Assembly: GCA_017416445.1 (NCBI GenBank) | Contig: JAFQCJ010000027.1 | Span: forward strand, 1-58,425 | Direction of reading: 5' to 3' | Length of the DNA: 58,425 bases | DNA from: Oscillospiraceae bacterium | GTDB taxonomy: Bacteria; Bacillota; Clostridia; Oscillospirales; Oscillospiraceae | Shown: positions 3,001-55,614 of the stretch, piece by piece | Layout: every line of letters begins with the position of its first letter | Numbering within the stretch: position 1 is the first letter of the stretch | Position numbers and translations under genes: made by a program | Notes under the pieces: generated by a model | Told to the model about the DNA's origin: nothing | Databases searched by the model: none | What the model saw: only the letters and a program-made list of their open reading frames with translations

Positions 3001-3125
3001 CCGGTCTCCAGGAACCAGCGGTAGGAATCCTTCTGGATCTCCAGCAGATTGGGCAGGGACACGACTTCCTCGTGTCGGGCAAAGTTCTTGCGAAGTGTCT
3101 TGCCGTAGTACTTGTCCTTGGCCAT
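1..3125 (-). CDS. rpoB: RNA polymerase beta subunit, C-terminus cut by window edge
   Basis: RpoB is the beta subunit of the core RNA polymerase and forms much of the active-site cleft. The first roughly 1040 codons are present and the frame is still open at base 1. The rifampicin-cluster segment reads [20 protein letters not shown] and is followed by the conserved [20 protein letters not shown] and [12 protein letters not shown] blocks. ATG 3123-3125 is chosen because it starts the typical N-terminus [10 protein letters not shown] and lies behind an AGGCG-type ribosome site. The usual upstream partners rplJ-rplL are absent; a 480-base intergenic region and an unrelated gene sit there instead. 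The cluster carries Pro where E. coli has Gln510. Confidence 0.98.
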
Positions 3126-3314
3126 CTTACTTCATCACGCCTTTCTCTTTCATGCTGTATTTTAAAGTTACTTACAAACAAACGGTGCAGGCAATTTCGA
3201 TACGCACGGGTTTGTTGCAATTTTCATACAAAACCCCTTGTATTTTCCTTGCCTGTGGTATATACTGAGAATGTAAAAGGGGATATGTGCCCATCATCCC
3301 AATATAAGCGCCTC

Positions 3315-3343
3315 AGTTTACCATATTTGTCCGCGCTTGTCAA
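3315..3343 (-). promoter_or_regulatory. rpoB promoter
   Basis: On the minus strand TTGACA (3338-3343) and TAAACT (3315-3320) are separated by exactly 17 bases. The expected start is near 3308, giving an untranslated leader of about 180 bases before rpoB. Confidence 0.75.
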
Positions 3344-3363
3344 GAAAAAATCCGATAAAAACC

Positions 3364-3398
3364 GCGCTCCGACGAGAAATTTTCGTCGGAGCGCTTTT
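3364..3398. terminator. Strong hairpin, bidirectional terminator
   Basis: Perfect 12-bp arms (3364-3375 and 3383-3394) close a 7-base loop. T-rich tracts lie on both sides, so it can terminate either strand. It lies just upstream of the rpoB promoter and would insulate rpoB from upstream transcription. No gene now reads into it from either side. Confidence 0.75.
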
Positions 3399-3419
3399 GT
3401 TTTCGCTGTTTTTTGCTGC

Positions 3420-3499
3420 GGGCGGATATAATCCGCCCCTACAAATTCTATTGAAATCTTCTTCCTATGTTGTAGGGAGACCTGCCCTCAGGCCGCCGC
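3420..3499. repeat. Intergenic palindromic repeat, copy 1
   Basis: The stretch holds a GGGCGGAT/ATCCGCCC palindrome (3420-3438) followed by CCTACAA, then TTGTAGGG and a CCTG-CCCT-CAGG palindrome running into GGCCGCCG (3470-3499). The same modules (CCCTACAA, CCTGCCC-CAGGCCGCCG) recur at 37666-37722. This points to a dispersed non-coding repeat family. Confidence 0.6.
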
Positions 3500-6513: not shown

Positions 6514-7209
6514 TTACGCAATTCCCTGCCGCTTCCCCATTTTCCGCCAGCTGAGAAAGCCGTAGAGGTCGTTCACCAGGAAGGCGGTAAAGCACACCAC
6601 CACCGAGACATACCGCACCTCGGACAGTGCCGCCATGACCCACAGCACCATCAGTACCACATCGTTGGCGGCGTAGGCCAGGGCGTAGTAGGGACTTCTG
6701 CGGAAGGTGAGGTACACCGCTGCAAAACTGGTGCTCACCGATAAGGTGCTGGGCAGCAGATTGGCGGTATGGAAAAAGCGCAGAATAAAGTAAAACGCCA
6801 CCGTCACCGCCGCCGTCAGCACCCATAGAAACGCCACCTCTTTTTTAGAAATGGCGTTCACCTTCACCTGACTGCGGTTGCCCTCGAAGGGATTCCGCAG
6901 CCAGGAGATCAGGGCCAACACCGCCATGGGCATGGTCATGCCCAGGTAGGTGATCATCTCACCGTAGTAGGCGAAGGTGTAGGAAATAATTCCGTAGAGA
7001 ATGCTGAATATCACCATCAGCACCTGTGAAACGGGGTTTCCTTTTGCAGCGAAAATAAGAGAGGTCACTCCAACGAGGGAGGCGGCCAGTGTTATATAGC
7101 TCTCCCGGTCAAACAGGCAGAAGGACACCAGGATGACCACTGATGAGATCCCCCACAGCAGCCACTCCCCTACGGTAAAATAGCGTCCCCATGCGCGCAG
7201 TTGTTTCAT
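6514..7209 (-). CDS. pnuC: PnuC-like nicotinamide riboside/vitamin transporter
   Basis: A 231-residue membrane protein of the PnuC facilitator family, which imports nicotinamide riboside for NAD salvage; relatives carry thiamine or riboflavin. Seven hydrophobic segments are visible, with family-like motifs AAKGN, ILYGIISYTFAYYGEMITYLG and a closing NDLYGFLSW. The ATG at 7207-7209 is chosen over one 13 codons upstream because AAGGAG lies directly before it and the upstream extension runs into a hairpin. Substrate specificity is inferred from family only. Confidence 0.82.
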   Translation of the reverse strand: MKQLRAWGRYFTVGEWLLWGISSVVILVSFCLFDRESYITLAASLVGVTSLIFAAKGNPVSQVLMVIFSILYGIISYTFAYYGEMITYLGMTMPMAVLALISWLRNPFEGNRSQVKVNAISKKEVAFLWVLTAAVTVAFYFILRFFHTANLLPSTLSVSTSFAAVYLTFRRSPYYALAYAANDVVLMVLWVMAALSEVRYVSVVVCFTAFLVNDLYGFLSWRKMGKRQGIA

Positions 7210-7228
7210 ACTATATTCTCCTTTGAAG

Positions 7229-7289
7229 AAAAAAGCATCCGCATACACATCTTCTAAGACCTAACGATGTGTAAACGAATGCTTTTTTT
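7229..7289 (-). terminator. Terminator or attenuator hairpin 20 bases before pnuC
   Basis: Arms 7229-7251 and 7266-7289 form a long stem (three mismatches in 17 core pairs) with a 14-base loop and T runs on both strands. It ends the molybdoenzyme operon. Because only about 20 bases separate it from the pnuC start and no promoter fits between, pnuC is probably expressed by regulated read-through. Confidence 0.65.
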
Positions 7290-7327: not shown

Positions 7328-7531
7328 TTATTCCTCAGGAAGGGATTTCAGCATATCAATGGTGCGGTAAATCTCCCCGCAGGCAGGGCACTTCCAACGG
7401 GTGTCGCTTTTCTTCGCCTTCTTATGGAGGCGCTCCAGCTCCGTCCCGCCGCACTTGGGGCAGGTGACGGGCTGGGATGTCCACAAGTTTTTAAGGAGCT
7501 TGACCTCCTCGTCACGATTGGCGGTATACAT
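7328..7531 (-). CDS. Small zinc-ribbon protein ending the molybdoenzyme operon
   Basis: A 67-residue protein with two CxxC knuckles (CPKCGG near residue 24 and CPACGE near residue 49), so a single zinc ribbon. Its ATG shares a base with the stop of the AsrB-like gene (TAATG), which argues for translational coupling and fixes this start over a longer frame. I do not know a named family. The coupling suggests an accessory role for the preceding complex, for example assembly or regulation. Confidence 0.75.
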   Translation of the reverse strand: MYTANRDEEVKLLKNLWTSQPVTCPKCGGTELERLHKKAKKSDTRWKCPACGEIYRTIDMLKSLPEE

Positions 7532-8325
7532 TAGTCGAGAAGCTCCTTGGCCTTGGTGTAGTTGAACACGGGGCCCTCCAGGCAGACATAGGTCTCGTTG
7601 ATCTTGCAGTGACCGCACTTACCTACAGCGCAGGACATCTTACGCTCGAAAGACACCCAGATCTTCTCCTCACTTACGCCGTTCTTCACGCACTCCTTGG
7701 CAGTGAAGCCGATCATCGCAGGGGGGCCCACGATCGCCACATTGAAGTCGTCAAACTCCGCGAAGGGCACATCCTTGATGTAGTTGGTGACAAAGCCCTT
7801 GTGGAAGCCCTCGGCCTCCATGTTGTCGAGGCAGTAGATGGTGTGGAACTTCTCCGCCTTGGCAAACGCAGCGAGGTCATCTTCAAAGAGGACGGCATCC
7901 CGATCCTTGAAGCCTACGATGAAGTACACGGACTGGATCTCCTCGGGATGAGCGGCAAAATACTGCAGCATACTGCGGACAGGTGCCATACCCGTACCAC
8001 CTGCCACCACCACAAGATTCTTGCCCTTGAAGTTCTCCACAGGGAAGGCGTTGCCGTAAGGGCCCCGCATAAAGAGGGTATCCCCCTCGTTCATGCCGAA
8101 GAGGCCGTCGGTCAGGCGACCCACCTTACGGATGGTAAATTCCACATAATCCTCGCCGCGGGAACTGACGGAAATGGGTGCTTCACCGATCTTGGGGATA
8201 GACAGCATGAAGAACTGACCGTGATCGGTCTTTCCCTCATAGTGGACACGGAAGGTGTACTCCGCCTTGGTCTCGTGGATGATCTTGATGATCTTGTGAG
8301 GCTGGGGCAGCGTGATGTTGTTCAT
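7531..8325 (-). CDS. AsrB-like FAD/NAD(P)H- and 2Fe-2S-binding reductase subunit
   Basis: A 264-residue flavoprotein of the anaerobic sulfite reductase subunit B type. The FAD-binding domain contains APISVSS, the NAD(P)H domain opens with VVVAGGTGMAPVRSM (about residues 106-120), and the C-terminal cluster site has spaced cysteines in CAVGKCGHC plus a later YVCLEGP. It should take hydride from NAD(P)H and pass electrons to the AsrA-like ferredoxin subunit. No AsrC siroheme subunit follows; the upstream genes encode a molybdoenzyme, so electrons are inferred to flow there. An AAGGAG site lies before the ATG. Confidence 0.85.
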   Translation of the reverse strand: MNNITLPQPHKIIKIIHETKAEYTFRVHYEGKTDHGQFFMLSIPKIGEAPISVSSRGEDYVEFTIRKVGRLTDGLFGMNEGDTLFMRGPYGNAFPVENFKGKNLVVVAGGTGMAPVRSMLQYFAAHPEEIQSVYFIVGFKDRDAVLFEDDLAAFAKAEKFHTIYCLDNMEAEGFHKGFVTNYIKDVPFAEFDDFNVAIVGPPAMIGFTAKECVKNGVSEEKIWVSFERKMSCAVGKCGHCKINETYVCLEGPVFNYTKAKELLD

Positions 8326-8328
8326 GTT

Positions 8329-9339
8329 TTAGCACTCCTTCCCTTCCTTAAGCGTTTCCACCGCCGCGGCCAGCTTGTCGATGGTCTCGGAGAAGTGGAT
8401 ATCCTTGGGGCAGCGCATATCGCAGCGGCCGCAGCCGACACACATATTGCCCTTGCCGAAGCGGGCATTGTAGTCGTAGAGCTTGTGCATGGCCTTGAAG
8501 CGCATACGATCCCCTGCCTTGGCGCGGACATTGTGGCCGCCTGCCACGGTGCTGTAATCATTCAGCATACAGGAGGACCACACGCGGCGGCGCTCGCCGT
8601 CACGGCTGGTCTCGTTGTAGATAATGTCGGTGGTGTCGAAGCAGCTGCAGGTAATGCACACGGTATTGCAGCCGCCGCAGCCGATGCAGTTGTCATCGAA
8701 TTCACGCCACATCTCCAACGCGTGGATGTCCTTCACCATGGCGCGATCCGTGATGGCGGGAACATTGACCTTGCGCTTGTTCTCGGTGACAAAGGCGGGG
8801 GTAAAATCACAAGCTGCCTCACCGCTGAACAGGTTGGCAAAGGTCTCGTCCTTCACCTCGACGAATACGCCGTCATCGTTGACACGCACCGCCACGGCAT
8901 AGTCGTCGGTAGCATTGCTGCCCATAGACACGCAGAAGCAGGTTTCAAAACTCTCGCAGCACTCCATCAGGAAGAACTTCACCTTCTCACGGAGGCGCTG
9001 ATAGAAGTTGTCAGCCTTGCCGCCGTTTTCCATAAAGATGGTGTCGAGGCGGTGGATACCGTTGATATCGCAGGGGCGGAGGAACAGCACCACGGGGCGC
9101 GCATCCACTTCACTCTCCCGCACATCGTTCTCGGAGAAGTACAGCAGCGTCTGGACGATGGGGTAAAAGACCTCTTTGGGGGAGAAGTGGGACTTCTCAT
9201 CAAAGACGATCTCCTCCATGCTCTTCACCTCGCCGTAGCGGATGAACTTGCCCACTTTCTTGGGGGCATAGACGCGGTAGGTCTCGCGCAGGGAGGTCAG
9301 CACCTCATCCATGCGCTGTTTCGTCATTACATAACCCAT
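8329..9339 (-). CDS. AsrA-like 4Fe-4S electron-transfer subunit
   Basis: A 336-residue protein resembling anaerobic sulfite reductase subunit A. Near the C-terminus it carries two ferredoxin-like cysteine sets, CIGCGGCNTVC (about residue 219) and CVGCGRCDMRCP (about residue 299). The N-terminal half has the family motif FLRPCDINGIHRLD. It is the likely wire between the FAD subunit and the molybdoenzyme iron-sulfur subunit. It starts at an ATG behind GGGAGG and lies 3 bases before the AsrB-like gene and 13 after the chaperone gene, in one transcription unit. Confidence 0.85.
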   Translation of the reverse strand: MGYVMTKQRMDEVLTSLRETYRVYAPKKVGKFIRYGEVKSMEEIVFDEKSHFSPKEVFYPIVQTLLYFSENDVRESEVDARPVVLFLRPCDINGIHRLDTIFMENGGKADNFYQRLREKVKFFLMECCESFETCFCVSMGSNATDDYAVAVRVNDDGVFVEVKDETFANLFSGEAACDFTPAFVTENKRKVNVPAITDRAMVKDIHALEMWREFDDNCIGCGGCNTVCITCSCFDTTDIIYNETSRDGERRRVWSSCMLNDYSTVAGGHNVRAKAGDRMRFKAMHKLYDYNARFGKGNMCVGCGRCDMRCPKDIHFSETIDKLAAAVETLKEGKEC

Positions 9340-9352
9340 ATCCGTACCTCCC

Positions 9353-9964
9353 TTACGCGCCCAGCAGCCCCTGCTCCATCTGCAGGAAGCCGCGACTCAG
9401 CTTGGCAAGACCGCGATAGAAATCGGTGGCGGCATATTTGCCCATATCCACCGTGAAGGCGCTGACCCAGTTGAGAAGATGGCTCTTCAGGAAAGCCTTC
9501 TGCTCCGCCTCAGCACCGTCATCGATGAGGAGTGCCATGTACTCACAGAGATAGCCCAGATGGTCCTCGGGGACATGGTAGTTGTCCTTGGAGGGCGTAA
9601 CACCACGGGCCGCGTACAGCGCCACCACATCCATGCGGGAGTCCTGCATCACCAGATGCTTGCGGCTGGTGTAAACCGACTCATAGGGGAAGGCGGCCTT
9701 ACCCTGCGCCACACCGGCAGAGAGGAAGATGCGGGCGTAGTCTACCGCCAGATCGTCCAGCACGGCGGTCATATCACCGTTGGCGTTGGCGGCGAGATAG
9801 GCGGCCATCAGCTCATAGCCCGCCTTGAGATCACCGTTGGCGTTCTCTGTGGGGAAGGCCATTTTCTGCAGCGCGTTCCACAGTGTTTCGTCCACCTCCA
9901 GCAGATACAGTCGGCTGAGGAAGCGGTACATATTGGCGCGGGCGTTGACCAGCTGCTTATCCAT
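9353..9964 (-). CDS. TorD/DmsD-family molybdoenzyme chaperone
   Basis: A 203-residue, mostly helical protein of the TorD family, which binds an apo-molybdoenzyme and helps insert bis-MGD. Family-like features are the FLSRLYLLEVDE opening, DYARIFL, PYESVY and the PEDHLGYLCEYMALL motif. The ATG at 9962-9964 is preferred to a GTG three codons upstream because GGGAGG is correctly spaced. It overlaps the end of the iron-sulfur subunit gene by 8 bases. Since the catalytic subunit shows no Tat signal, the role is probably cofactor loading, not export proofreading. Confidence 0.85.
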   Translation of the reverse strand: MDKQLVNARANMYRFLSRLYLLEVDETLWNALQKMAFPTENANGDLKAGYELMAAYLAANANGDMTAVLDDLAVDYARIFLSAGVAQGKAAFPYESVYTSRKHLVMQDSRMDVVALYAARGVTPSKDNYHVPEDHLGYLCEYMALLIDDGAEAEQKAFLKSHLLNWVSAFTVDMGKYAATDFYRGLAKLSRGFLQMEQGLLGA

Positions 9965-10586
9965 TCTGCGCACCTCCCTTTTTCATCATCTCTTCAAACT
10001 CCTTGGGCAGCATGTCGATCCACTTGGCATTCCGCAGGATGAAGCGGCCTGCGGGCTTATTACCGAAGTCCTTGAGGGAGTAGACATTCTCCTCTCCTGC
10101 TGCAGCGATGGCTTTGGACACCACGCTGTCGGGGTCGTTGATATCGCCGTACATCAGTGCCTTACCCGAGCAGTTGCGGACACAGGCGGGTTCTTCCCCC
10201 TCTGCGCGGCGCTCGGCGCAGACATTGCACTTATCGGAGATACGCATCTCCTGATTGAAGCGGATGGCATCGTAGGGGCAGGCCCGCTTGCAGCTTTGGC
10301 AGCCAATGCAGACATTGCCGTCGATCTTAATGACGCCGTCGGCCTCATCCTTGTAGCAGGCACCTGTGGGGCAGACCTCCACACAGGTGGGGTTTTCACA
10401 CTGCTGGCACATAAGAGGCAGGAAATACAGCTCCAGATCGGGGAACTTGCCCGTGGGGCCCATGGTATAGAGGGTGCTGCGGGATTTGCCCAGGGCGATC
10501 TCATGCTCCGTCTTGCAGGCCACCTGGCAGCCGCCGTGACAGCCGATGCAGCGGTCCAGGTCGGCTACGATCACAAATTGTTTCAT
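9957..10586 (-). CDS. DmsB-like four-cluster ferredoxin subunit
   Basis: A 209-residue iron-sulfur protein with four cysteine quartets. The visible groups are C13/C16/C20/C24, C60/C63/C68/C72, C93/C96/C99/C103 and C120/C123/C135/C139, with C77 as an additional ligand candidate. This is the arrangement of DmsB/PhsB-type subunits that hand electrons to a bis-MGD catalytic subunit. It lies 3 bases downstream of that subunit's gene. No transmembrane anchor subunit gene is nearby, so the complex appears soluble. Confidence 0.9.
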   Translation of the reverse strand: MKQFVIVADLDRCIGCHGGCQVACKTEHEIALGKSRSTLYTMGPTGKFPDLELYFLPLMCQQCENPTCVEVCPTGACYKDEADGVIKIDGNVCIGCQSCKRACPYDAIRFNQEMRISDKCNVCAERRAEGEEPACVRNCSGKALMYGDINDPDSVVSKAIAAAGEENVYSLKDFGNKPAGRFILRNAKWIDMLPKEFEEMMKKGGAQNG

Positions 10587-10589
10587 CTC

Positions 10590-13268
10590 TTATTTCCCCT
10601 CCTTCGAACTGTCCACGGCAGGGCCGTGGCCCACAGGCAGCCAGGACTTGAAGTCCTCGGGCTTGGTCCACACGCCCTCAGGGGGACCGTCAGCCTTGGA
10701 CACGCGGACCTGGAAGCCGCGCAGGGTGTAGGTGCCCACCACATCGTTGAAGGGTGCGGTGGACTTGGTCAGCACATTGACATTCATCTCCGTCCAGCCG
10801 TGGGTCTTGGTATCCAGCGTCTCAGGATTCCAGAAACGCTCCATGTATACGATTCTGGGCGGGATGCCCTCGGTGACCCACGCTTTGGCAGTGATCTTAC
10901 CGCGAAGGGACTCCACAAAGGTCCAGTCGCCGTTGGCAATGCCGTACTCCGCGGCGGTTTCGGGATTGATCCAGATCTCGGGCACAGGATACATCTCGCG
11001 GAGTGCCGCCACATTGCGGAGGGTGGAGTGGTGATAGAAAGGCACGCGGCCGTTGGTCATCACCAGAGGGAACTGCTTTTGCAGTTCGCCGTCACCCAGA
11101 GGACTCTCGATAGGCTCGAGGTAGTAAGCCAGCGGTTCATAGTCCTTGGAGGCGGGAGGCAGTGCCTCGGCGGCAAAGGGCTGACCCGTTCTGCCGAGGG
11201 TGATCATGCTCTCGAGATAGATCTCCAGCTTCTTGGAGGGAGTGGGGAAGCCCTGGGGCTTACCCGTGGTCTCGTCGATATTCTTGTAGACATAGTAGGT
11301 GCGCCACTGGTCCTTGGGCAGGTACTCGAAGGGTGCCTTCTCGGCAAACTCCTTCCAATCCATTCCCACCACCTTGGTAAAGTGGCCGAAGAACTCCGCC
11401 ATGGAGTCCCAATAGGGCAGATCCTCACCCATAAACTCGGCATCGAAGGCCTTCTGGCAGCCCTCGTGACCCAGCTCGGCACAGCGGCGTGCCAGACGGG
11501 ACCAGATGAGGGTCTCGTCCATGGTCTCCCACAGATGGGTCACCTGCTGACGGGCAAAGAGCTTGTTGCAGGTCTCCACGATCATATCCGTCTCCAGCCA
11601 CTCCTCGGTGGGCAGCAGGATATCGGCATAGGCGGAGAAAGAGGTGGGGTACATATACATATGGACGATGAAGTCCAGCTTCTCGATGGCCTCCACCCAC
11701 TTCTTGCTCTCTGCCACCACCCCCAGCTTGTTGCCGGAGCGGTCGATCCACACCCGGGGCTGATAGGGCTCACCGGTCAAAATAGCATCGCGGATGCTGG
11801 AGGGATGTCCTGCCCACCAGATGTGCAGGCCCTTGTGCTCCACGCCGCCCAGACGCTTCTGCAGCTGACCCTCAGGCAGACACTTGGTGGCCACGGGAAC
11901 GGGATAGTTGGGCATCTTCAGCACACCACTGGTGCGGAAGCGCTGCAGCAGACTGCCGGGACGCTCCACATTGCCCATGATGAGGTCGATGGTCGCCGCC
12001 GCCATGGCCGCCTGCACGGAGTTGGGGGTCTGGTCGGTGGCAACACCGAGGGCGAGGCCGCTGGGGGTGTTCTCGCAGAACATCTTCACCGCTTCCTCGA
12101 TCTTCTTAGGATCCAGCCAGCAGATCTCCCCGGCCTTTTCCAGGGTATACTCCTCCACGCTCTCCCACAGCAGCTGATAACCGGTCTTGCAGACCTTGCC
12201 ATCCACCACAAACTCGCCCTCCAGAGCGGGCTCAAGGCTCTCGTCGTAGGGGTAGGCCATGTCCTTGGCAGAATTGGTCTTTTTATCCCACACCATGAAG
12301 GTGTCGGGCACATTGGGATCCTGGCTCACCTCGGCACGGAGCAGCATCTTGGACTCCACATCCACCAGATAAGGCAGGTTGGTCCACTTCATGACGATCT
12401 CCTCGTCATAGAGCTTGTGCTCCAGAATATACCGCGTCCAGCTCAGCAGCAGCGCCACATCCGTACCGGGACGGATGGGCAGCCAGATGTCGGCCTTGGC
12501 TGCATCGGGGGTAAAGCGGGGATCCACGGAGATGGTCTTAACGCCCCGGGCCCGGAGCTCCACCACGGCGTTACCGCCGCTGGCAGGGCAGGAATAGGCA
12601 GGAGAAGTACCCCACAGTGCCAGACACTTGATGGGGGTATCATCGGGGAAGTACAGCTCCAGTGCGTTGGAGTCGGCGATACTGGGATCCACACCGCCAT
12701 ACATCATGGTGTAGGCCAGTACACGGGGCAGATAGCACTGGGCACAGCCGGGCTCAAACCAGTTGGGCGTGCCGAAGACATTACAGAAACGGGCGATGCT
12801 CCAGATCTCGGGGTTACCGCCGCCGCCGGTGGAACAGAATACCGTCTCGGCACCGTACTTCTCCCGGGTATCCATCAGCTTCTCGGCGATGGTGGTCAGT
12901 GCCTCATCCCAGGAGATGCGCTTCCACTTGCCGCCGCCGCGCTCACCTACGCGCTTAAGGGGGAATTTGTTGCGGTTGGGGTGATACAGTGCCTGAATGC
13001 CCGCCAGACCCTTGGCACACATACGGCCCTTGCTCATGGGGTCCTCGTTGTTACCCTCCAGCTTGATGACGCGGCCGTTCTTCACATAGGCCAGCACGCC
13101 GCAGTTGGCGATACAGGCGCGGCAGCAGGTCTTGACCACCTTCACCTCGTCCTCTCCCGCTGCCGTTTTCACCTCGCAGCGGTCAAAGGCGCTCTTCTTG
13201 GGCAGTGCCTCTTCCACCCCTGCCATGGCAATGGCACCGAGATACTGTTGTACGCGTTCTTTATCCAT
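10590..13268 (-). CDS. DMSO-reductase-family molybdopterin oxidoreductase, catalytic subunit
   Basis: An 892-residue bis-MGD enzyme. An N-terminal 4Fe-4S site is formed by C49, C52, C56 and C84. The molybdopterin domain follows (ISWDEAL, FGTPNWFEPGCAQC), and the dinucleotide-binding C-terminal domain begins near MTNGRVPFYHHS. The molybdenum ligand is probably C175 or C178. There is no twin-arginine signal, so the enzyme is cytoplasmic. The start at 13266-13268 is chosen because AGGAGG lies just before it; an in-frame ATG 11 codons upstream lacks such a site. The substrate is unknown: reduction of a small oxyanion, N/S-oxide or aromatic compound is all possible. The neighbours supply cofactor (MoeA, MobBA), chaperone and an NAD(P)H input module. 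Confidence 0.92.
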   Translation of the reverse strand: MDKERVQQYLGAIAMAGVEEALPKKSAFDRCEVKTAAGEDEVKVVKTCCRACIANCGVLAYVKNGRVIKLEGNNEDPMSKGRMCAKGLAGIQALYHPNRNKFPLKRVGERGGGKWKRISWDEALTTIAEKLMDTREKYGAETVFCSTGGGGNPEIWSIARFCNVFGTPNWFEPGCAQCYLPRVLAYTMMYGGVDPSIADSNALELYFPDDTPIKCLALWGTSPAYSCPASGGNAVVELRARGVKTISVDPRFTPDAAKADIWLPIRPGTDVALLLSWTRYILEHKLYDEEIVMKWTNLPYLVDVESKMLLRAEVSQDPNVPDTFMVWDKKTNSAKDMAYPYDESLEPALEGEFVVDGKVCKTGYQLLWESVEEYTLEKAGEICWLDPKKIEEAVKMFCENTPSGLALGVATDQTPNSVQAAMAAATIDLIMGNVERPGSLLQRFRTSGVLKMPNYPVPVATKCLPEGQLQKRLGGVEHKGLHIWWAGHPSSIRDAILTGEPYQPRVWIDRSGNKLGVVAESKKWVEAIEKLDFIVHMYMYPTSFSAYADILLPTEEWLETDMIVETCNKLFARQQVTHLWETMDETLIWSRLARRCAELGHEGCQKAFDAEFMGEDLPYWDSMAEFFGHFTKVVGMDWKEFAEKAPFEYLPKDQWRTYYVYKNIDETTGKPQGFPTPSKKLEIYLESMITLGRTGQPFAAEALPPASKDYEPLAYYLEPIESPLGDGELQKQFPLVMTNGRVPFYHHSTLRNVAALREMYPVPEIWINPETAAEYGIANGDWTFVESLRGKITAKAWVTEGIPPRIVYMERFWNPETLDTKTHGWTEMNVNVLTKSTAPFNDVVGTYTLRGFQVRVSKADGPPEGVWTKPEDFKSWLPVGHGPAVDSSKEGK

Positions 13269-13337
13269 ACGATACCTCCTGTTGAGCCGTTTGCAGCCCA
13301 CTTTCTCTTCGTTGGTATTTTCTTCTCATTGTTTTCC

Positions 13338-14543
13338 TCACAGCAGCCACACCTCCACCGTATCCCCTGTGGAGAGCCCCTGATTGGGTCCCTGAATATC
13401 CACAAGGCAGTTGCAGTGTTTCAGCGCTGAGAGCATCCCCGAGGCATGTCCCTGACGAGGGATCTCCACCGTTCCGTGGCGGTAGCGGGCCCGCACAAAG
13501 CGCCGCCCCTTCGTCCCCTTGGGAAATTCGCCTGCCACCGTGGCGGTGACCTTCTCCATCACCAGCGACCCATCGCCGCTGAGTTTTGCCAGAGCAGGCC
13601 GTACCAGCAGCTCAAAGGTGGCAAAAGCGCCGAAGGGGTTGCCCGACAGGGCAATGACAGGTGTGCCCTCAAAGGTATACGCCAGCACGGGTGAACCGGG
13701 CTTGGCGGCAATACGCCAGAACAGCTGCTCTCCACCCAGACGGGTGACCACCTCGTGCATCACATCCCGCTGCCCCACTGACACACCGCCGGTGGTGATA
13801 ATAAGATCAGCGTTCTGCGCCGCGGTGCGGATACGCTCTGCAGTCTCCTCCACCTCGTCTCCTACATGGGCGCACAGGACGGGCTCAAAGCCCAGTTCTG
13901 CAAGGCGGCTGCGGAGAAGATAGTGGTTGGTGTTATAGATCTTACCGGGACGGCTGGCCATGCCGGGGGCGATAAGCTCATCGCCGGAGGTAATGAGGGC
14001 CACCCGCACCTTGCGCTGTACCTTCACCGCCGCGATGCCGGCACCGGCCAGAAGGCCGATGTCCACCGCGTCCAGCTTTTCCCCTCTGTCCATCAGCCGC
14101 GTTCCGGCGGGATAGTCCTCGCCACAGTCGCAGTAGTTGTCGTGGCTGTGAAGAGCGGTGTAGATCTGTACCCGTTCTTCGCCGTAGTCGGTGTCCTCCT
14201 GACGGATGACACAGTCGGCACCGCGGGGGATCGGCGCGCCGGTCATAATGCGCACCGCCGTTCCCGCCGTAACCGCCTCCTTCGCCACATTGCCCGCCAT
14301 CACACGGTCAACTACCCGAAGGGTGACAGGTTTCTCTCTCGATGCATCCACGGAATCGGCGGCCCGGAGGGCATAGCCATCCAGAGGGGAGCGGTCAAAG
14401 GGCGGCTGGGGCTGGATAGCCACAATATCCTCGGCCAGTATACGGCCCCGGGCGCAGCGCAGCTCCACCTCTTCCCATCCCTCCACGGGACGAAGTGCCG
14501 CCATAAGTTGTGCCCTTGCCTGTTCTACACTGATGGCGTGCAT
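13338..14543 (-). CDS. moeA: Molybdopterin molybdenumtransferase MoeA
   Basis: MoeA inserts molybdate into adenylated molybdopterin. The 401-residue protein shows the MoeA order: a linker domain opening with PPFDRSPLDGYALRAAD, an MPT-binding core with GDELI, TTGGVSVGQRD and ALSGNPFGAFATF, and a small C-terminal beta domain. It starts behind AGGAGAGG and overlaps the end of the MobBA fusion gene by 19 bases. Lying 69 bases before the molybdoenzyme gene, it probably provides cofactor to that enzyme. Confidence 0.95.
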   Translation of the reverse strand: MHAISVEQARAQLMAALRPVEGWEEVELRCARGRILAEDIVAIQPQPPFDRSPLDGYALRAADSVDASREKPVTLRVVDRVMAGNVAKEAVTAGTAVRIMTGAPIPRGADCVIRQEDTDYGEERVQIYTALHSHDNYCDCGEDYPAGTRLMDRGEKLDAVDIGLLAGAGIAAVKVQRKVRVALITSGDELIAPGMASRPGKIYNTNHYLLRSRLAELGFEPVLCAHVGDEVEETAERIRTAAQNADLIITTGGVSVGQRDVMHEVVTRLGGEQLFWRIAAKPGSPVLAYTFEGTPVIALSGNPFGAFATFELLVRPALAKLSGDGSLVMEKVTATVAGEFPKGTKGRRFVRARYRHGTVEIPRQGHASGMLSALKHCNCLVDIQGPNQGLSTGDTVEVWLL

Positions 14544-15595
14544 ATCCCCTCTCCTTCCAGCGCAGCGTAGTCCTGCTGCGTGTTGATATTTCCAAATGTG
14601 CCGTTATCAGCACACACATATTCGTCGTAGCCAACCTGCTCCAGAAGGGCCATCACCCCACCGCGGCCCTCTACCAGAGCAGTGCGGATATCCTTTGCCA
14701 CGGCGCGGTCATAAACCCCCAGCAGGGGTTCTGTTTTCTCCCCGTGGCGCAGAACAGTAACGGGCTTGCCGCCGGTCATACTGCGTTCGATCAGTCCCCG
14801 CAGTACAGCGGCGTCCAGCCGGGGCATGTCCACCGTGACCACAAGACACTTACGGTGCTGCGCCGCTTCCAGCGTGGCCTCAAGTCCACCCAGAGGCCCC
14901 CGCTGACAGAACTTGTCCGTCACCACAGGGACAGAACAGCATTCTCCGCGATAACCCGAGACGAGAATGTCCCGGATCCCCAATTCCCGTCCGAGGGCGA
15001 TCTGATGCTCCAAAAAGGTGGTCCCGCCGTAAAGGAGATCGGCTTTCTCCCGTCCCATGCGGCGGCTGAGACCTCCCGCCAGAACGATCATGGACAGCTG
15101 GGTGCGGATATACTTCTCCCGCAGCACCAGCGCAGCGATGGAGGCAATGTCATCGCGCCCGTAGCAGGGTACGCCTGCCATAGGAGCGTCCGTACCGTCG
15201 GAGGCAAAGGCCACCAGGTTCTGCTGATTACAAATCAGCTGATCTTTTTCTGCCGTCAACATCTGCACCTTGGGGTAGTCGCTGCCCTTACAGCCCTCCA
15301 GCAGGATCATGTCCGCCTCAGGGAACAGCTGGGCAACGGCATCGGCGGAGGTTTTCTCCTCCTTGACTACCATAAACTTCTCCCCGTCATACACCGCCGT
15401 GGCATAGGCCCCTGCAGCGCGGTGACGGCAGGAGTCGGTGCCGGGGACATCGGCAGCAAATGCATGGCCGTCATGCTTGATGGCTGCCACGCGAAAGCCG
15501 TGCATCGTCAGCGCAGCAATAAGGCGTTCCACAAGGGTTGTCTTGCCGGTATTCTTTTCTCCGCAAACAGCAAACACAAAGGGTCTTTTTCCCAC
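14525..15595 (-). CDS. MobB-MobA fusion: molybdopterin-guanine dinucleotide biosynthesis
   Basis: A 356-residue fusion. Residues 1-165 are MobB-like, a GTP-binding P-loop protein with GEKNTGKTT and the LLEGCKGSDYPK motif. Residues 168-356 are MobA-like, the guanylyltransferase that makes MGD, with LAGGLSRRMGREKADL and the GPLGGLEATL motif. Its presence means the cofactor used here is the MGD form, matching the DMSO-reductase-family enzyme downstream. The start is GTG (15593-15595) behind GGGGGTG. It is the first gene of the operon and follows a promoter embedded in nested palindromes. Confidence 0.92.
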   Translation of the reverse strand: MGKRPFVFAVCGEKNTGKTTLVERLIAALTMHGFRVAAIKHDGHAFAADVPGTDSCRHRAAGAYATAVYDGEKFMVVKEEKTSADAVAQLFPEADMILLEGCKGSDYPKVQMLTAEKDQLICNQQNLVAFASDGTDAPMAGVPCYGRDDIASIAALVLREKYIRTQLSMIVLAGGLSRRMGREKADLLYGGTTFLEHQIALGRELGIRDILVSGYRGECCSVPVVTDKFCQRGPLGGLEATLEAAQHRKCLVVTVDMPRLDAAVLRGLIERSMTGGKPVTVLRHGEKTEPLLGVYDRAVAKDIRTALVEGRGGVMALLEQVGYDEYVCADNGTFGNINTQQDYAALEGEGICTPSV

Positions 15596-15619
15596 GCTTC
15601 ACACCCCCTACACAACAAT

Positions 15620-15687
15620 GCGGGACAGATGTCTATACATGGTACAGTGTATCAAAATATACACCGTAATGCAAGGCACTGTCCCGC
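15620..15687 (-). promoter_or_regulatory. Promoter within nested palindromes ahead of mobBA
   Basis: On the minus strand TTGCAT (15669-15674) and TACACT (15646-15651) are 17 bases apart. A 9-bp perfect inverted repeat (15620-15628 with 15679-15687) brackets the promoter. A second, near-perfect palindrome of 10 bp arms covers the spacer and -10 box. Because one outer arm lies upstream of the start point it is not transcribed, which favours a DNA operator over a riboswitch. A molybdate- or substrate-responsive regulator is a plausible ligand for it. Confidence 0.6.
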
Positions 15688-15715
15688 TTCTTCTATCAAC
15701 TTTTTTTAAATAAGG

Positions 15716-16345
15716 CTATTTGCTTTTTGCATAAGTTTCTACAAATTTCGCCACATCATTGAACTCATGAAGCCTTTCTTTCAGCGTCTCATGATCCCAG
15801 TTCCACCACGCAATATCTTCCATGGCCTGACGGGTCGCCTCGTCATAGCGCCAGCCGATATGGCGGGCGGGTACACCTGCTACGATCTCATAGGACGCCA
15901 CATCATGGGTCACCACCGCCCCTGCAGCCACCACCGCACCGTTGCCGATGGTGACACCGCCCATGACGATGGCATTGTGCCCCATCCATACATCATGTCC
16001 TGTCGTAACGGTAAGCTGTTTGCGCCATTGGATCAGCTCCCCGTCATCCTCTCCCAGACCGTAGTGGGCGGCACGGTAGGTAAAATGATGTGCCGCGGCG
16101 CGCTGCCGCATGGGGTGCTGCACCGGATTGATGCGCACACCTGTGGCGATGGAATTGAATTTGCCCAGTGTGCAGTTGTAGATGTCGTTCTCACCGAAGA
16201 GATAGGTGTATGAGCCGATATAGCTGTCCGCGGCGATGCAGTCGTTTCCCAGCTCCACATACTGTCCAAAGCGACAGTTGTTCACCACACAGCTGGGGTG
16301 AATGAGTGGCTCTTCCGCTGTGAGTTGTTTGGTAAAATCCAGCAT
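15716..16345 (-). CDS. Hexapeptide-repeat acyltransferase (TIGR03308/CatB-like)
   Basis: A 209-residue left-handed beta-helix acyltransferase. Hexapeptide repeats are seen in CVVNNCRFGQYVELGN and GVTIGNGAVVAAGAVVTHDV, and the HHFTYRAAHYGLGEDD and GHDVWMGHNAIVMGG blocks are those of the family once linked to phosphonate gene clusters. No phosphonate genes are present here, so the substrate is open; xenobiotic O-acetylation is another option. It starts behind GGAGC and follows rlmD by 14 bases, so the two are likely co-transcribed. Confidence 0.8.
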   Translation of the reverse strand: MLDFTKQLTAEEPLIHPSCVVNNCRFGQYVELGNDCIAADSYIGSYTYLFGENDIYNCTLGKFNSIATGVRINPVQHPMRQRAAAHHFTYRAAHYGLGEDDGELIQWRKQLTVTTGHDVWMGHNAIVMGGVTIGNGAVVAAGAVVTHDVASYEIVAGVPARHIGWRYDEATRQAMEDIAWWNWDHETLKERLHEFNDVAKFVETYAKSK

Positions 16346-16359
16346 AATCTGCTCCTTTT

Positions 16360-17718
16360 TCAGTTCTCCCGCACCAAAAGACAGACGCTCTCGATATTGG
16401 CCGTGCGGGGGAAGAGGTCGACTGCGCAGGCGCGGACGGCACGGTAGCCCAGAGCGGCAAATCGCTTCACATCCCGACCCAGAGTAGCCGGGTCACAGGA
16501 GACATAGACGATGCGCCGCGGGTTCATCTCCGCCGCTGCTTCAATGACCTCCGGGGCAAGACCCTTGCGGGGGGGATCGACACAGATCACATCGGGGCGC
16601 AGTCCACGGCGCGCCAGCTCCGCTGCCGCCACCTTGGCATCGCCCTGGATGAACTCCACATTTTCCACGCCGTTATTCTTCGCGTTTTCCCACGCGTCCC
16701 GGACGGCCTCAGGGACGATTTCGGCGCCCATGGCAGACTTGGCATGGCGGGCCATACAAAGGGTAATGGTTCCTGCGCCGCAATAGAGATCCAGCACCGT
16801 CTCCTCCCCTGTCAGGGCGGCGTATTCCACCGCCTTGTTGTACAGTACCTCCGCCTGCCGGCGGTTCACCTGATAGAAAGAGGGCACCGACAGACGGAAA
16901 GTAAGGCCGCAGAGGGTATCCCGCAGGGTATCCTCTCCCCAGAGCGTACGGTATGTATCCCCCAGAATGGTGTTGCCCTCCCTGCGGTTTTCTCCCCAGA
17001 CGATACCCACTGTACAGGGAACAGCCTCGCGGAGCATGGCCACCAGCTCCTCCTCATAGGGGGCACCTGCCCCGTTACCCAGCACGCAGATGAGGCTCTC
17101 TCCCGCAGCGTTGGTACGGACATAGAGGTGGCGCAGGAGGCCGCGGCGAGTGGTTTCATCATAGCATTTGACATGATAGCGACGGATGTACTCCCGCAGT
17201 GCCGCCGCGGCATTATCGGCCTCACGGCACTGGATGAGACAGCTCTCCACCGGGATGACCTCGTGGCTGCGGGCACGGTAGAAACCCACGGTGCCCTCTT
17301 TTCCCACAGGGTACTGGCTCTTGTTGCGATAGCGCTCCGTGTCCGCGGCCCCCAGGATCGCCTCCACCGTTACCTCACTGCCGCCGAGACGGCGCAGGGC
17401 ATCCTGTACCCGTCCACACTTGGCAGAGAGCTCTTCTTCATAGTCCATGTGGCGGAAGTCGCAGCCGCCGCAGCGGCCGTAGTAGGGGCAGTCGGGTTCC
17501 TGACGATGTGCCGAGGGAGTGTGGATGGCCGCCACCTTGCCGAAGGCGGCGTTCTTCAGCACCTTCAGAATATGGATGTCGCACTCCTCCCCCGCTACGG
17601 CGCGGTGGACGAACACCACCTGTCCATCCACGCGGGCAATGCCCAACCCCTCAGAGGAATACCCCTCAATGACGGCGCGGACGGTTTGATTTTTCTGCAG
17701 GGACACTCGCTGTTCCAT
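16360..17718 (-). CDS. rlmD: 23S rRNA (uracil-C5)-methyltransferase, RlmD/RlmCD type
   Basis: A 452-residue SAM-dependent enzyme that makes 5-methyluridine in 23S rRNA. The order is an N-terminal TRAM domain (about residues 10-65), an iron-sulfur site with C77, C83 and C86 in CPYYGRCGGC, a SAM-binding motif LDLYCGAGTITLCMA, then DPPRKGL and the catalytic YVSCDPATLGRD. The start follows AGGAG. Firmicutes often encode one such enzyme acting at both U747 and U1939, so the exact position is inferred. Confidence 0.92.
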   Translation of the reverse strand: MEQRVSLQKNQTVRAVIEGYSSEGLGIARVDGQVVFVHRAVAGEECDIHILKVLKNAAFGKVAAIHTPSAHRQEPDCPYYGRCGGCDFRHMDYEEELSAKCGRVQDALRRLGGSEVTVEAILGAADTERYRNKSQYPVGKEGTVGFYRARSHEVIPVESCLIQCREADNAAAALREYIRRYHVKCYDETTRRGLLRHLYVRTNAAGESLICVLGNGAGAPYEEELVAMLREAVPCTVGIVWGENRREGNTILGDTYRTLWGEDTLRDTLCGLTFRLSVPSFYQVNRRQAEVLYNKAVEYAALTGEETVLDLYCGAGTITLCMARHAKSAMGAEIVPEAVRDAWENAKNNGVENVEFIQGDAKVAAAELARRGLRPDVICVDPPRKGLAPEVIEAAAEMNPRRIVYVSCDPATLGRDVKRFAALGYRAVRACAVDLFPRTANIESVCLLVREN

Positions 17719-53598: not shown

Positions 53599-55614
53599 AT
53601 GCATCCCAAGTTCCCCCATGTATTTGAGCCCATTACCATCCGCGGCAAGGTGTATAAAAACCGTCTCATTGCCGCTCCTACCATGTTCGCCCACTCTATC
53701 TTCACCATTCCTCCCATGAAGGAGAATGTCTACCGCATGGTGGAGAATCGCGCCAAGGGCGGTTTCGCCGCTGTGTCCACCGGTGAGCATCCTGTCAACG
53801 CCGAGGAGGGTACTGCCCTCTTCTACGAGCACCACATGGACTTCACCAAGACCGAAGGTCCCGACTTCGAGGCGATGAAAGAGTACGCCGACCGCATTAA
53901 GAAGCACGGCGCCATCTGCTACTTCGAGTTCTGCCATGAGGGTGCCCGCGCCGAGCACAATCCCCCTTACTCCCCCTGGGGTCCCGACGGGTATGTCCGT
54001 GACGACGGTGTGGAGGTCAAGGCACTGGATCTGCCCATGATGGAGAAGATCTGCAACGACTTCTATAATATCTCCGCCTACGCCAAGGCCTGCGGTTTTG
54101 ACGGCATTCTCGTCCACGGCGGGCACGGTTTTATCATGCAGCAGTTTGTCTCCCCCTGGACCAACCACCGCACCGACGAGTTCGGCGGCTCCATGGAGAA
54201 TCGGGCCCGCTTCCCCAAGATGCTCATTGACGCCTGCCGCCGCGGTATCGGAGAGGACGGCATCATCGAGCTGCGTTTCTCCGCCGAGGACGGCGTGGAG
54301 GGCGGTATGACCATCGATGACACGGTGGAGTTCTGCCGTGAAATCGACGGCCTCGTGGACATCATCCATGTCTCCAACGGTCTAAAATGGGCCGGCAACC
54401 AGACCAAGACCTTCTCCTCTTTCCTGGAGCCCCACGGCATCAATGTAGAGTATGCCGCCAAGATCAAGGCCGCAGTCAAAGTCTCCAAGGTTGCCGTGGT
54501 AGGCGGTTTCAACAGCCCCGAGCACTGCGAGGAAGTGCTGGCCGCCGGTAAGGCCGACTTCATTGAGCTGGCTCGTCAGGGCTTCGCCGATCCCGAATTC
54601 CCCAACAAGGCACTCAACGGTCAGGAGGACTCCATCCGCCGCTGCGTCCGCTGCTTTGGCTGCTATCCCGGCTTCTGCGAGCATCCCACCGACATCCCCC
54701 TGTTTGAAAAGCTGGGCCCTGAAGAGGCCATGAAGATCTATACCCCCTTCGCCATGGGCAAGTGCGCCATCAACCCCAACTCCGGCTTCGGCTGGTATCC
54801 CGAAACCATGCCCGATCCCCAGGCCAGCCGCAAGGTGCTGATCGTAGGCGGCGGCGTGGGCGGTCTGCAGACTGCCATCACCTGCGCCCAGCGTGGTCAT
54901 AAGGCGGTGCTGGTGGAGAAGCGTGACCGTCTCGGCGGTACTATGAACTTCACCGATGTGGACGAGGACAAGGTGGACATCCGCAACTTCAAAAACCTCC
55001 TCATCCGTGAGGCTACGGAGTGCGGTACGGATATCCGTCTCAACACCACCATGACTAAGGAGCTTCTCGATGAGGTGAAGCCCGATGTGGTGATCCTCGC
55101 CGTAGGCGGCAAGCTTGTTCCCGCTCCCATCGAGGGTGTGGAATATGCCCGCGATGTCATGGCTGCCTATTATGATCTGGACAGCGTTGGCAAGAAGGTG
55201 GTTCTGGTGGGCAGTGGCCTCACCGCCTGTGAGGTGGCCCTGCACCTTGCCAATAACGGCCGCGATGTGACGGTGCTGTGCCGACGCGACATGATGGCCT
55301 ACGAGACCTTCGGCTATTACCGTAATGCCCTGTTGGAGGCTATGGACGCCCGGGGCATCCATCAGATGCTGAAAACCAGGACTCTCTCCATTGCTGCCGA
55401 TGGCGTGACGGTAGAAAAGGACGACAAGAAATTCGTTGTCCCCGCCGATACGGTCCTCTACTCCACGGGGATCCGTCCCAACGCAGAATTGGTGGAGGAA
55501 CTGAAGGCACTGGCAGGGGATATCCCTGTCAAGGTTATCGGTGACGCCCTCGCCAGCGGCAAGATGGGTGACGCTGTCCGCGGCGGCTACATGGCTGCTA
55601 TGGAGATCGTGTAA
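53599..55614 (+). CDS. NADH:flavin oxidoreductase / 2-enoate reductase (old yellow enzyme type with Fe-S)
   Basis: A 671-residue protein like 2-enoate reductase, FldZ and BaiCD/BaiH. It has an FMN TIM barrel (residues 1-345, with HGGHGFIMQQFVSPWTNHRTDEFGG), a cysteine region, and FAD/NAD domains (VGGGVGGLQTAI near 415, VGSGLTACEVALHL near 536). Such enzymes reduce activated C=C bonds with NAD(P)H. The cysteine region is odd: C349, C352, C355 and C360, with the GKCAINP cysteine at 389 instead of about 13 residues after the third ligand. It is a single gene behind AAGGAGG; the substrate may be a cinnamate, enone or bile-acid-like molecule. Confidence 0.9.
   Translation: MHPKFPHVFEPITIRGKVYKNRLIAAPTMFAHSIFTIPPMKENVYRMVENRAKGGFAAVSTGEHPVNAEEGTALFYEHHMDFTKTEGPDFEAMKEYADRIKKHGAICYFEFCHEGARAEHNPPYSPWGPDGYVRDDGVEVKALDLPMMEKICNDFYNISAYAKACGFDGILVHGGHGFIMQQFVSPWTNHRTDEFGGSMENRARFPKMLIDACRRGIGEDGIIELRFSAEDGVEGGMTIDDTVEFCREIDGLVDIIHVSNGLKWAGNQTKTFSSFLEPHGINVEYAAKIKAAVKVSKVAVVGGFNSPEHCEEVLAAGKADFIELARQGFADPEFPNKALNGQEDSIRRCVRCFGCYPGFCEHPTDIPLFEKLGPEEAMKIYTPFAMGKCAINPNSGFGWYPETMPDPQASRKVLIVGGGVGGLQTAITCAQRGHKAVLVEKRDRLGGTMNFTDVDEDKVDIRNFKNLLIREATECGTDIRLNTTMTKELLDEVKPDVVILAVGGKLVPAPIEGVEYARDVMAAYYDLDSVGKKVVLVGSGLTACEVALHLANNGRDVTVLCRRDMMAYETFGYYRNALLEAMDARGIHQMLKTRTLSIAADGVTVEKDDKKFVVPADTVLYSTGIRPNAELVEELKALAGDIPVKVIGDALASGKMGDAVRGGYMAAMEIV

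Follow-up and report, generated by a model that had tools for sequence, protein, structure and literature searches.

The stretch of DNA considered here, a contig of 58,425 nucleotides from an Oscillospiraceae bacterium (JAFQCJ010000027.1, assembly GCA_017416445.1; its full length is called the window below), belongs to a genome of 1.14 Mb in 75 contigs that is 66% complete. Between positions 7328 and 15595, its minus strand carries an operon in which the genes of a molybdoenzyme and its cofactor machinery are joined to those of AsrA and AsrB, two subunits known from the sulfite reductase AsrABC. The genes follow each other in the order mobBA-moeA-CAT-FeS-torD-asrA-asrB-Zn ribbon, with CAT standing for the catalytic subunit, and are separated by -19 to +36 bases (Table 1). 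An earlier note on this DNA had described the same tightly packed run, and matches to Pfam and NCBIfam models confirm the description, including the identities of AsrA and AsrB, which both exceed the cut-offs of their models, and the four-cluster character of the ferredoxin subunit. AsrB comprises an NAD-binding and a DHODB-type Fe-S domain and has kept the GGTGMAP, FAD-type and four-Cys motifs. The sole solved relative of AsrA at E 0.001 is subunit beta of sulfhydrogenase 1 (9nez_B). For the zinc-ribbon gene, the most likely start codon is the ATG overlapping the stop codon of asrB, which sets its span; a match to it adjoins the operon only in two related loci, L004 and L007 (open reading frames of at least 60 amino acids, E 1e-6), and it is therefore regarded as accessory.

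Table 1. Protein-coding features of the window discussed in the text (columns: feature, positions, strand, supporting evidence).
MobB-MobA fusion, molybdopterin guanine dinucleotide synthesis	14525..15595	-	Pfam PF03205, PF12804; TIGR00176 above cut-off
MoeA, molybdenum insertion	13338..14543	-	Pfam MoeA_N, MoCF_biosynth, MoeA_C
CAT, bis-MGD molybdoenzyme	10590..13301	-	Pfam PF04879, PF00384, PF01568, all three above cut-off
FeS, four-cluster [4Fe-4S] electron-transfer subunit, NrfC/PsrB/DmsB type	9957..10586	-	Fer4_11 and others; 2vpw_B 130 bits; 17 Cys
TorD/DmsD-type chaperone	9353..9973	-	PF02613 100.6 bits; TorD model 81.8 bits, below cut-off 132
AsrA-type Fe-S subunit, molybdoenzyme-linked clade	8329..9339	-	TIGR02910 415 bits, cut-off 323
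AsrB-type FAD/NAD(P)H and [2Fe-2S] subunit	7531..8325	-	TIGR02911 342 bits, cut-off 289
Small zinc-ribbon protein, 67 aa	7328..7531	-	ATG start overlaps asrB stop (TAATG)
BaiCD/enoate-reductase-type flavoenzyme	53599..55614	+	62% identical to the operon-adjoining gene of P. paucivorans; BaiCD model 354 bits, cut-off 825

CAT itself most likely starts at the ATG encoding M12 (position 13268), since the first start codon of its closest relative, at locus L004, lies at the same place. The longer form that begins with GTG contains the motif NRRYRM, followed by charged residues instead of a hydrophobic stretch, and is for this reason not read as a twin-arginine translocation (Tat) signal. In agreement with the earlier note, no Tat signal was thus seen at the N-terminus of the window's CAT, no gene for a DmsC/NrfD membrane anchor is found among the annotated genes beside the operon, and the best match to the siroheme subunit AsrC in the window's own, 66%-complete genome reaches 30.5 bits against a cut-off of 324. 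CAT is also the only PF00384 match of this genome at E 0.001.

A scan of contigs with CAT as the query yielded 126 loci, the best 80 of which (L004-L083) form the set of relatives analyzed here. Flanks of up to 10 kb, often shorter, were searched around them, with seven of the 80 loci ended by a contig end, and the assignment of electron-transfer modules was checked by tblastn, including those of L054, L059 and L073. The CAT alignment comprises 77 sequences, namely the window and 76 of the 80 loci (L047, L074, L077 and L083, with open frames shorter than 840 amino acids, were left out), and the 76 aligned relatives share 58-93% identity with the CAT of the window. Judging by record titles, most hosts are Firmicutes from gut, rumen and the environment, including Eubacterium ramulus, Eubacterium oxidoreducens, Parasporobacterium paucivorans, Sporomusa and lactobacilli, with a few Acidobacteriota, Proteobacteria and Sulfurospirillum. 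Within the window's genus, CAT occurs in one of 31 other genomes at E 1e-60, so its distribution is patchy.

The proposal made in the earlier note, in which AsrAB has taken on a new role as NAD(P)H dehydrogenase for a molybdoenzyme of the cytosol, is supported by five comparative results, which together argue for such a role. First, asrA and asrB follow CAT in 56 of the 80 loci, showing that their association is not due to chance, whereas asrC was found near CAT in none of the 80 within the flanks searched. DmsC and NapH matches are likewise missing from all 56 AsrAB loci. Second, TorD and AsrA form a single open reading frame in 27 loci, comprising 25 of the 56 AsrAB loci as well as L010 (5404-6792) and L012, in which TorD is continued by roughly the N-terminal half of AsrA and no AsrB match is present; the half-length AsrA represents either a shortened partner or a product of decay. 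The fusion of AsrA to the chaperone is strong evidence that it belongs to the molybdoenzyme. Third, the AsrAB module on the one hand and the DmsC/NapH module and Tat signals on the other exclude each other. A Tat signal, defined as a motif plus a hydrophobic stretch, is found on CAT in ten of the 80 loci, none of which has an AsrA or AsrB match; seven of the ten show a DmsC-type match and nine show NapG and NapH matches (detected by tblastn in L071 and L075), with only a weak NapG match of 36 bits in L064. An automatic search for RR flagged 11 N-termini, which are those of the ten Tat loci and that of L068, an AsrAB locus in which the two arginines are followed by charged residues.

The fourth and fifth results concern AsrA and its background distribution. 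In a tree of AsrA proteins, one branch (SH-aLRT 99) separates 57 CAT-linked from 37 asrC-linked rows; of the unlabelled rows, a duplicate of the window (L121) groups with the CAT-linked proteins, and L108 and L119, from genomes G266 and G131, with the asrC-linked ones. This tree excluded matches below 150 bits or 250 residues as well as identical peptides and, like the CAT tree described below, was obtained by a quick IQ-TREE search (LG+G4) with SH-aLRT support only. The cluster-binding Cys residues are common to both groups, the only exception being a single position of one asrC-linked protein. Across 54 shared loci, CAT and AsrA distances are correlated (Mantel r 0.72, with none of 999 permutations as high), as would also be expected from vertical descent alone. 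A background sample of 343 genomes of the class, the window's genome included, contains 43 AsrA matches in 34 genomes, of which, by coordinates, 37 lie beside AsrC and four beside CAT, while the remaining two are located on a contig apart from the AsrC of its genome (G266) and beside neither partner (G131). CAT is present in four of the 343 genomes and has asrA next to it, within about 1.5 kb, in all four, although two of these are identical with the records of L039 and L045 and hence not independent of the 80 loci.

These data bear directly on the possibility that AsrAB still serves sulfite reduction, together with an AsrC encoded elsewhere, while the molybdoenzyme is fed from another source such as ferredoxin. 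AsrA and AsrB do pass the equivalog cut-offs for sulfite reductase subunits, an AsrC could have gone unseen in a genome that is 66% complete, and two genomes (G236 and G331) carry both CAT-linked and asrC-linked copies of asrA. However, each asrC in these two genomes has its own asrA beside it, and the lack of AsrC beside CAT within the searched flanks of all 80 loci, the TorD-AsrA fusions and the separate AsrA clade make this scenario very improbable. As a separate observation, L131 (6814-12233) and L149 (2537-7849) contain asrABC and, directly after it, a distant molybdoenzyme, which shares 26-27% identity with CAT along part of its sequence, together with a small gene of ferredoxin type; this constitutes a different asr-molybdoenzyme neighbourhood.

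The CAT tree, together with the N-termini of the proteins, points to the origin of the AsrAB-linked form. All 67 rows that lack a Tat signal group together in one clade (96), to which none of the ten Tat rows belongs. A Tat profile was built from eight of the ten Tat N-termini and tested on 53 of the 67 soluble rows, the other two and 14 rows, respectively, being left out by a motif or length rule. L040, L045 and L051, which branch off first within the soluble clade, score 26-32 bits with this profile, and their N-termini read KKDFL where the Tat rows have RR.FL, followed by a similar stretch. More broadly, 24 of the 53 soluble N-termini exceed the 99th percentile of shuffled sequences and 29 the 95th. 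We read the Tat-like stretch as a probable remnant of an export signal that decayed after the enzyme had become cytosolic. Because the rows without a Tat signal form a single clade whose earliest branch retains a Tat-like N-terminus with KK in place of RR, the data suggest one switch from an exported, quinol-linked enzyme to a cytosolic, NAD(P)H-linked one.

Several observations weigh against this reading. Four loci (L008, L046, L047 and L056) contain CAT with neither module and three others (L010, L012 and L042) only AsrA remnants, indicating that AsrAB is not indispensable. Fifteen of the 56 AsrAB loci show weak NapG matches (35-43 bits), which we take to reflect general ferredoxin similarity. 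Moreover, 29 of the 53 soluble N-termini stay below the 99th percentile of the shuffles, with 24 of the 53 lacking any signal, and the CAT tree is weakly rooted on very distant paralogs. Among the loci with neither module, L056 contains a gene resembling thiamine-pyrophosphate-dependent 2-oxoacid oxidoreductases (13937-16473, overlapping open frames), which follows CAT-FeS-TorD in place of asrAB and could possibly act as a third electron donor.

The substrate of CAT is less readily deduced, although the nearest known enzymes narrow the range of candidates. CAT contains the Fe4S4, molybdopterin and dinucleotide-binding domains and a metal-ligand residue, as do the MopB enzymes with a bis(molybdopterin guanine dinucleotide) cofactor (bis-MGD). 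Its placement in the DMSO (dimethyl sulfoxide) reductase family in the earlier note stands, but the label DmsA-like proved too narrow, since its nearest solved relatives are acetylene hydratase, which comes first by both sequence and profile (262 bits by profile), and the PsrA/PhsA-type enzyme 2vpw (230 bits by profile). By this ranking of PDB scores, which is not a tree, no other characterised bis-MGD family is as near to CAT as acetylene hydratase. Cys60, Cys63, Cys67, Cys95 and Cys189 are invariant in the 77 aligned sequences, with Cys189 aligning with the Cys of PsrA and acetylene hydratase that binds Mo or W. These assignments of active-site residues are based on sequence alignment.

It is hardly credible that CAT is simply acetylene hydratase or pyrogallol-phloroglucinol transhydroxylase under another name, even though the former is its top solved match and the hosts include genera that we take to be gallate degraders. 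Acetylene hydratase is a monomer with no known electron-transfer partners, and its catalytic Asp next to the Fe-S motif, which we take to be Asp13, aligns with Ile64 of CAT, a residue that is nearly invariant in the 77 sequences. Pyrogallol transhydroxylase, in turn, reaches no more than 39 bits with the CAT profile and is absent among the 54 solved-chain matches of the window's CAT as a single query. In addition, E. oxidoreducens and P. paucivorans encode separate transhydroxylases, with one E. oxidoreducens copy scoring 1628 bits to the solved enzyme and the other separate copies being 53-83% identical to that gene; CAT belongs to another subfamily, and its identification as a transhydroxylase was rejected on these grounds.

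More weight attaches to the idea that the same soluble NAD(P)H module reduces an S or N oxide or an oxyanion, such as thiosulfate, polysulfide, DMSO, trimethylamine N-oxide (TMAO) or selenate, and thus represents a PhsA/PsrA-like electron sink that operates in the cytosol without a membrane. PhsA is the best-scoring NCBIfam model for CAT, and 2vpw, its second-best solved relative, shares the Cys position of the metal ligand. However, none of the 25 NCBIfam models shown is passed by CAT, with PhsA itself reaching 280 bits against a cut-off of 694, acetylene hydratase outscores 2vpw, and several neighbourhoods and co-occurring genes look phenolic, so that we regard an oxide or oxyanion as an unlikely, albeit not a far-fetched, substrate.

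The phenolic connection is most apparent for pyrogallol transhydroxylase. With the 1628-bit E. oxidoreducens gene as the query and a threshold of E 1e-100, transhydroxylase-like genes were detected in 33 of 78 CAT genomes, compared with one of the 343 class genomes. A Fisher test against the 339 class genomes that lack CAT, the four with CAT having been excluded from the background, gave p 4e-26, not corrected for relatedness. Among the 33 positive genomes, 29 contain genes with about 49% identity or more, and when CAT is clustered at 80% identity, 13 of the 29 clusters include a positive genome. In two loci, the transhydroxylase genes lie on the same strand after CAT-asrAB, following a second asrB-like gene (L061, L076). 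The additional segments (L061:12247-17142 and L076:15691-20669) comprise the asrB-like gene and then a transhydroxylase-like gene, whose open frame is N-terminally extended, and an Fe-S subunit; the transhydroxylase of these loci may thus be coupled to NAD(P)H in its own right. A distant transhydroxylase (33%) also follows the operon in the Sporomusa locus L054, whereas that of P. paucivorans lies about 11 kb upstream, on a stretch that also includes molybdenum-cofactor genes and a UbiX gene.

Alternatively, CAT might form or consume 1,2,3,5-tetrahydroxybenzene, which serves pyrogallol-phloroglucinol transhydroxylase as cosubstrate, and thereby prime the gallate pathway. The co-occurrence of the two enzymes and their shared gene run in L061 and L076 would fit such a function, but it appears improbable, because the hydroxylation of an aromatic from water with NAD(P)+ is probably unfavourable thermodynamically, leaving only the reductive direction plausible, and because no transhydroxylase match is present in 45 of the 78 CAT genomes, including the genomes behind the six sequences of the window's own CAT cluster (the window, L004-L007 and L060).

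Other neighbours point in the same general direction as the transhydroxylases. A UbiD decarboxylase gene is located upstream of L028 and L072, and the region upstream of the Sporomusa silvacetica locus L048 encodes proteins resembling an aromatic-acid symporter (79.8 bits), a methyltransferase (74.5 bits) and an enoate reductase (467 bits), all below the respective cut-offs. In P. paucivorans, a BaiCD/enoate-reductase-type gene directly follows the operon, and its counterpart in the window (Table 1), 40 kb from the operon, is a possible pathway partner. Acyl-CoA dehydrogenase and electron-transferring flavoprotein (ETF) neighbours (E. ramulus and L082) were not used as evidence, as they possibly serve central metabolism. 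Apart from gene neighbourhoods, the proximity of CAT to acetylene hydratase is informative, because Maini Rekdal et al. (PMC7028382) name the same enzyme as the neighbour of catechol dehydroxylases, which supports a catechol-dehydroxylase-like reading of CAT. We therefore tentatively favour, at slightly less than even confidence, a polyhydroxylated aromatic of the catechol or pyrogallol type as the substrate, which would be reductively dehydroxylated. The earlier note had left the substrate unspecified; it can thus be narrowed to polyphenols, if only as a conjecture.

Against this assignment stand, first of all, the missing transhydroxylase matches in the 45 genomes mentioned above, which include those of the window's cluster, of the three lactobacilli and of Clostridium lacusfryxellense, and the low identity (only 37-45%) of the matches in the remaining four positive genomes. 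Furthermore, the Cys ligand would fit sulfur-oxyanion reductases as well, and E. ramulus is not known to act on 3,4-dihydroxyphenylacetate. Many neighbours are unrelated to phenolics, including genes for DNA ligase, MetA, fructose bisphosphatase, a tRNA synthetase, a P-type ATPase, ABC transporters and peptidases; since the neighbours scanned were chosen and only the phenolic-looking ones enter the argument, the neighbour evidence is selective.

A comparison with known systems helps to define what is distinctive about the operon. It shares with AsrABC the subunits AsrA and AsrB, including their cluster-binding Cys residues and NAD(P)H/FAD motifs, but contains a molybdoenzyme and a four-cluster ferredoxin instead of the siroheme subunit AsrC, and its AsrA belongs to a separate, frequently TorD-fused clade. 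The same beta/gamma NAD(P)H module also serves another catalytic core in the sulfhydrogenase/hydrogenase HydBG (ShyBC; 9nez_B), although this core is a NiFe hydrogenase rather than a molybdoenzyme and the AsrA and AsrB models score far higher on the window's proteins. With DmsABC, PsrABC and PhsABC, the system has in common a catalytic subunit, a four-cluster ferredoxin and a TorD-type chaperone, whereas it is devoid of the anchor and the Tat signal. Pyrogallol-phloroglucinol transhydroxylase, which acts in the likely pathway and shares a gene run with CAT in two loci, is redox-neutral, and we know of no NAD(P)H module associated with it; it moreover belongs to a subfamily other than that of CAT, with a Ser ligand according to PMC10100899.

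Closer parallels exist among the aromatic dehydroxylases, although these were likened to CAT by description rather than by sequence. As far as the available sections of PMC7028382 describe them, the Eggerthella enzymes Dadh, Cadh and Hcdh are bis-MGD enzymes nearest to acetylene hydratase, and the Tat-type relatives of CAT similarly have a Tat signal, a ferredoxin subunit and, in seven of ten cases, a DmsC-type anchor, whereas CAT of the window's type is cytosolic and AsrAB-linked. Dodh and Cldh of Gordonibacter are, by contrast, predicted to be soluble molybdoenzymes with a small 4Fe-4S partner, for which the same sections name no NAD(P)H module; they are smaller and lack the Fe-S motif of the catalytic subunit that CAT possesses, as stated in PMC11574389. 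On a more general level, the principle of soluble, NAD(P)H-linked MopB enzymes is already known. NAD-dependent formate dehydrogenases and NADH-linked assimilatory nitrate reductases are soluble MopB enzymes that employ other diaphorase subunits and belong to other clades. Some such NAD(P)H-coupled enzymes of other clades are named in PMC10100899, and PMC10949509, in the portion available, treats AsrABC and Nar but not an AsrAB-CAT operon. Consistent with the description of the architecture as apparently undescribed in the earlier note, we found no account of AsrAB together with a molybdoenzyme of the CAT kind in the open-licence PubMed Central literature.

The architecture is thus real, conserved and evolutionarily coherent. 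Judging from sequence comparison, we consider it probable that the operon encodes a soluble, NAD(P)H-dependent molybdoenzyme that descended from an exported enzyme through a module swap; polyhydroxylated aromatics are its most likely, yet still conjectural, substrates. We infer that its subunits form a physical complex, in which electrons from NAD(P)H would enter at the FAD and [2Fe-2S] cluster of AsrB, move on to the [4Fe-4S] clusters of AsrA and from there to the four-cluster ferredoxin subunit, and finally reach the [4Fe-4S] cluster and the bis-MGD molybdenum of CAT, with Cys189 as its putative ligand. TorD would act as the chaperone of CAT, while MobBA and MoeA are predicted to serve the cofactor. 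The ancestor may have been an enzyme that the Tat pathway exported to the outer face of the membrane and that a DmsC/NapGH module linked to quinol; a single change to the cytosol would have seen this module swapped for AsrAB and the twin arginines lost.

It is tempting to extend this idea to a large, unrecognised family of aromatic dehydroxylases, cytosolic and driven by NAD(P)H, in Firmicutes of the gut, the rumen and the soil. Its components match the models of sulfite reductase subunits and of DMSO reductases, and the family would have originated from one switch of an exported respiratory catechol or pyrogallol reductase, a speculative proposition to which we attach limited confidence. If it is true, fermenting bacteria dump electrons from NAD(P)H onto plant polyphenols, and AsrAB, the TorD fusion proteins and pyrogallol transhydroxylase are linked in one pathway. 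According to PMC11574389, known catechol dehydroxylases are predominantly found in Eggerthella and Gordonibacter; should the substrate assignment hold, the operon would supply both a marker gene and an electron donor for the dehydroxylation of polyphenols by Firmicutes. At the level of the modules, AsrAB appears to have exchanged a siroheme enzyme for a molybdoenzyme as its partner, and the decayed Tat signal seems to have preserved a trace of this event. A match to TIGR02910 or TIGR02911 alone is consequently no evidence for sulfite reduction, as it mislabels molybdoenzyme-linked proteins as sulfite reductase subunits.

The surroundings of the operon contain several further genes. Just downstream, at positions 6514-7248 of the window, lies a gene for a PnuC nicotinamide riboside transporter, which is also present in L004 and may either be relevant to the supply of NAD or have come to lie there by chance. 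Just upstream, at positions 15716-16345, the window encodes a hexapeptide acyltransferase of the phosphonate-associated type (TIGR03308, 245 bits, above cut-off). Two long open frames of 1092 and 905 amino acids (153-3431 and 19614-22331) are without a Pfam match at E 1e-8.

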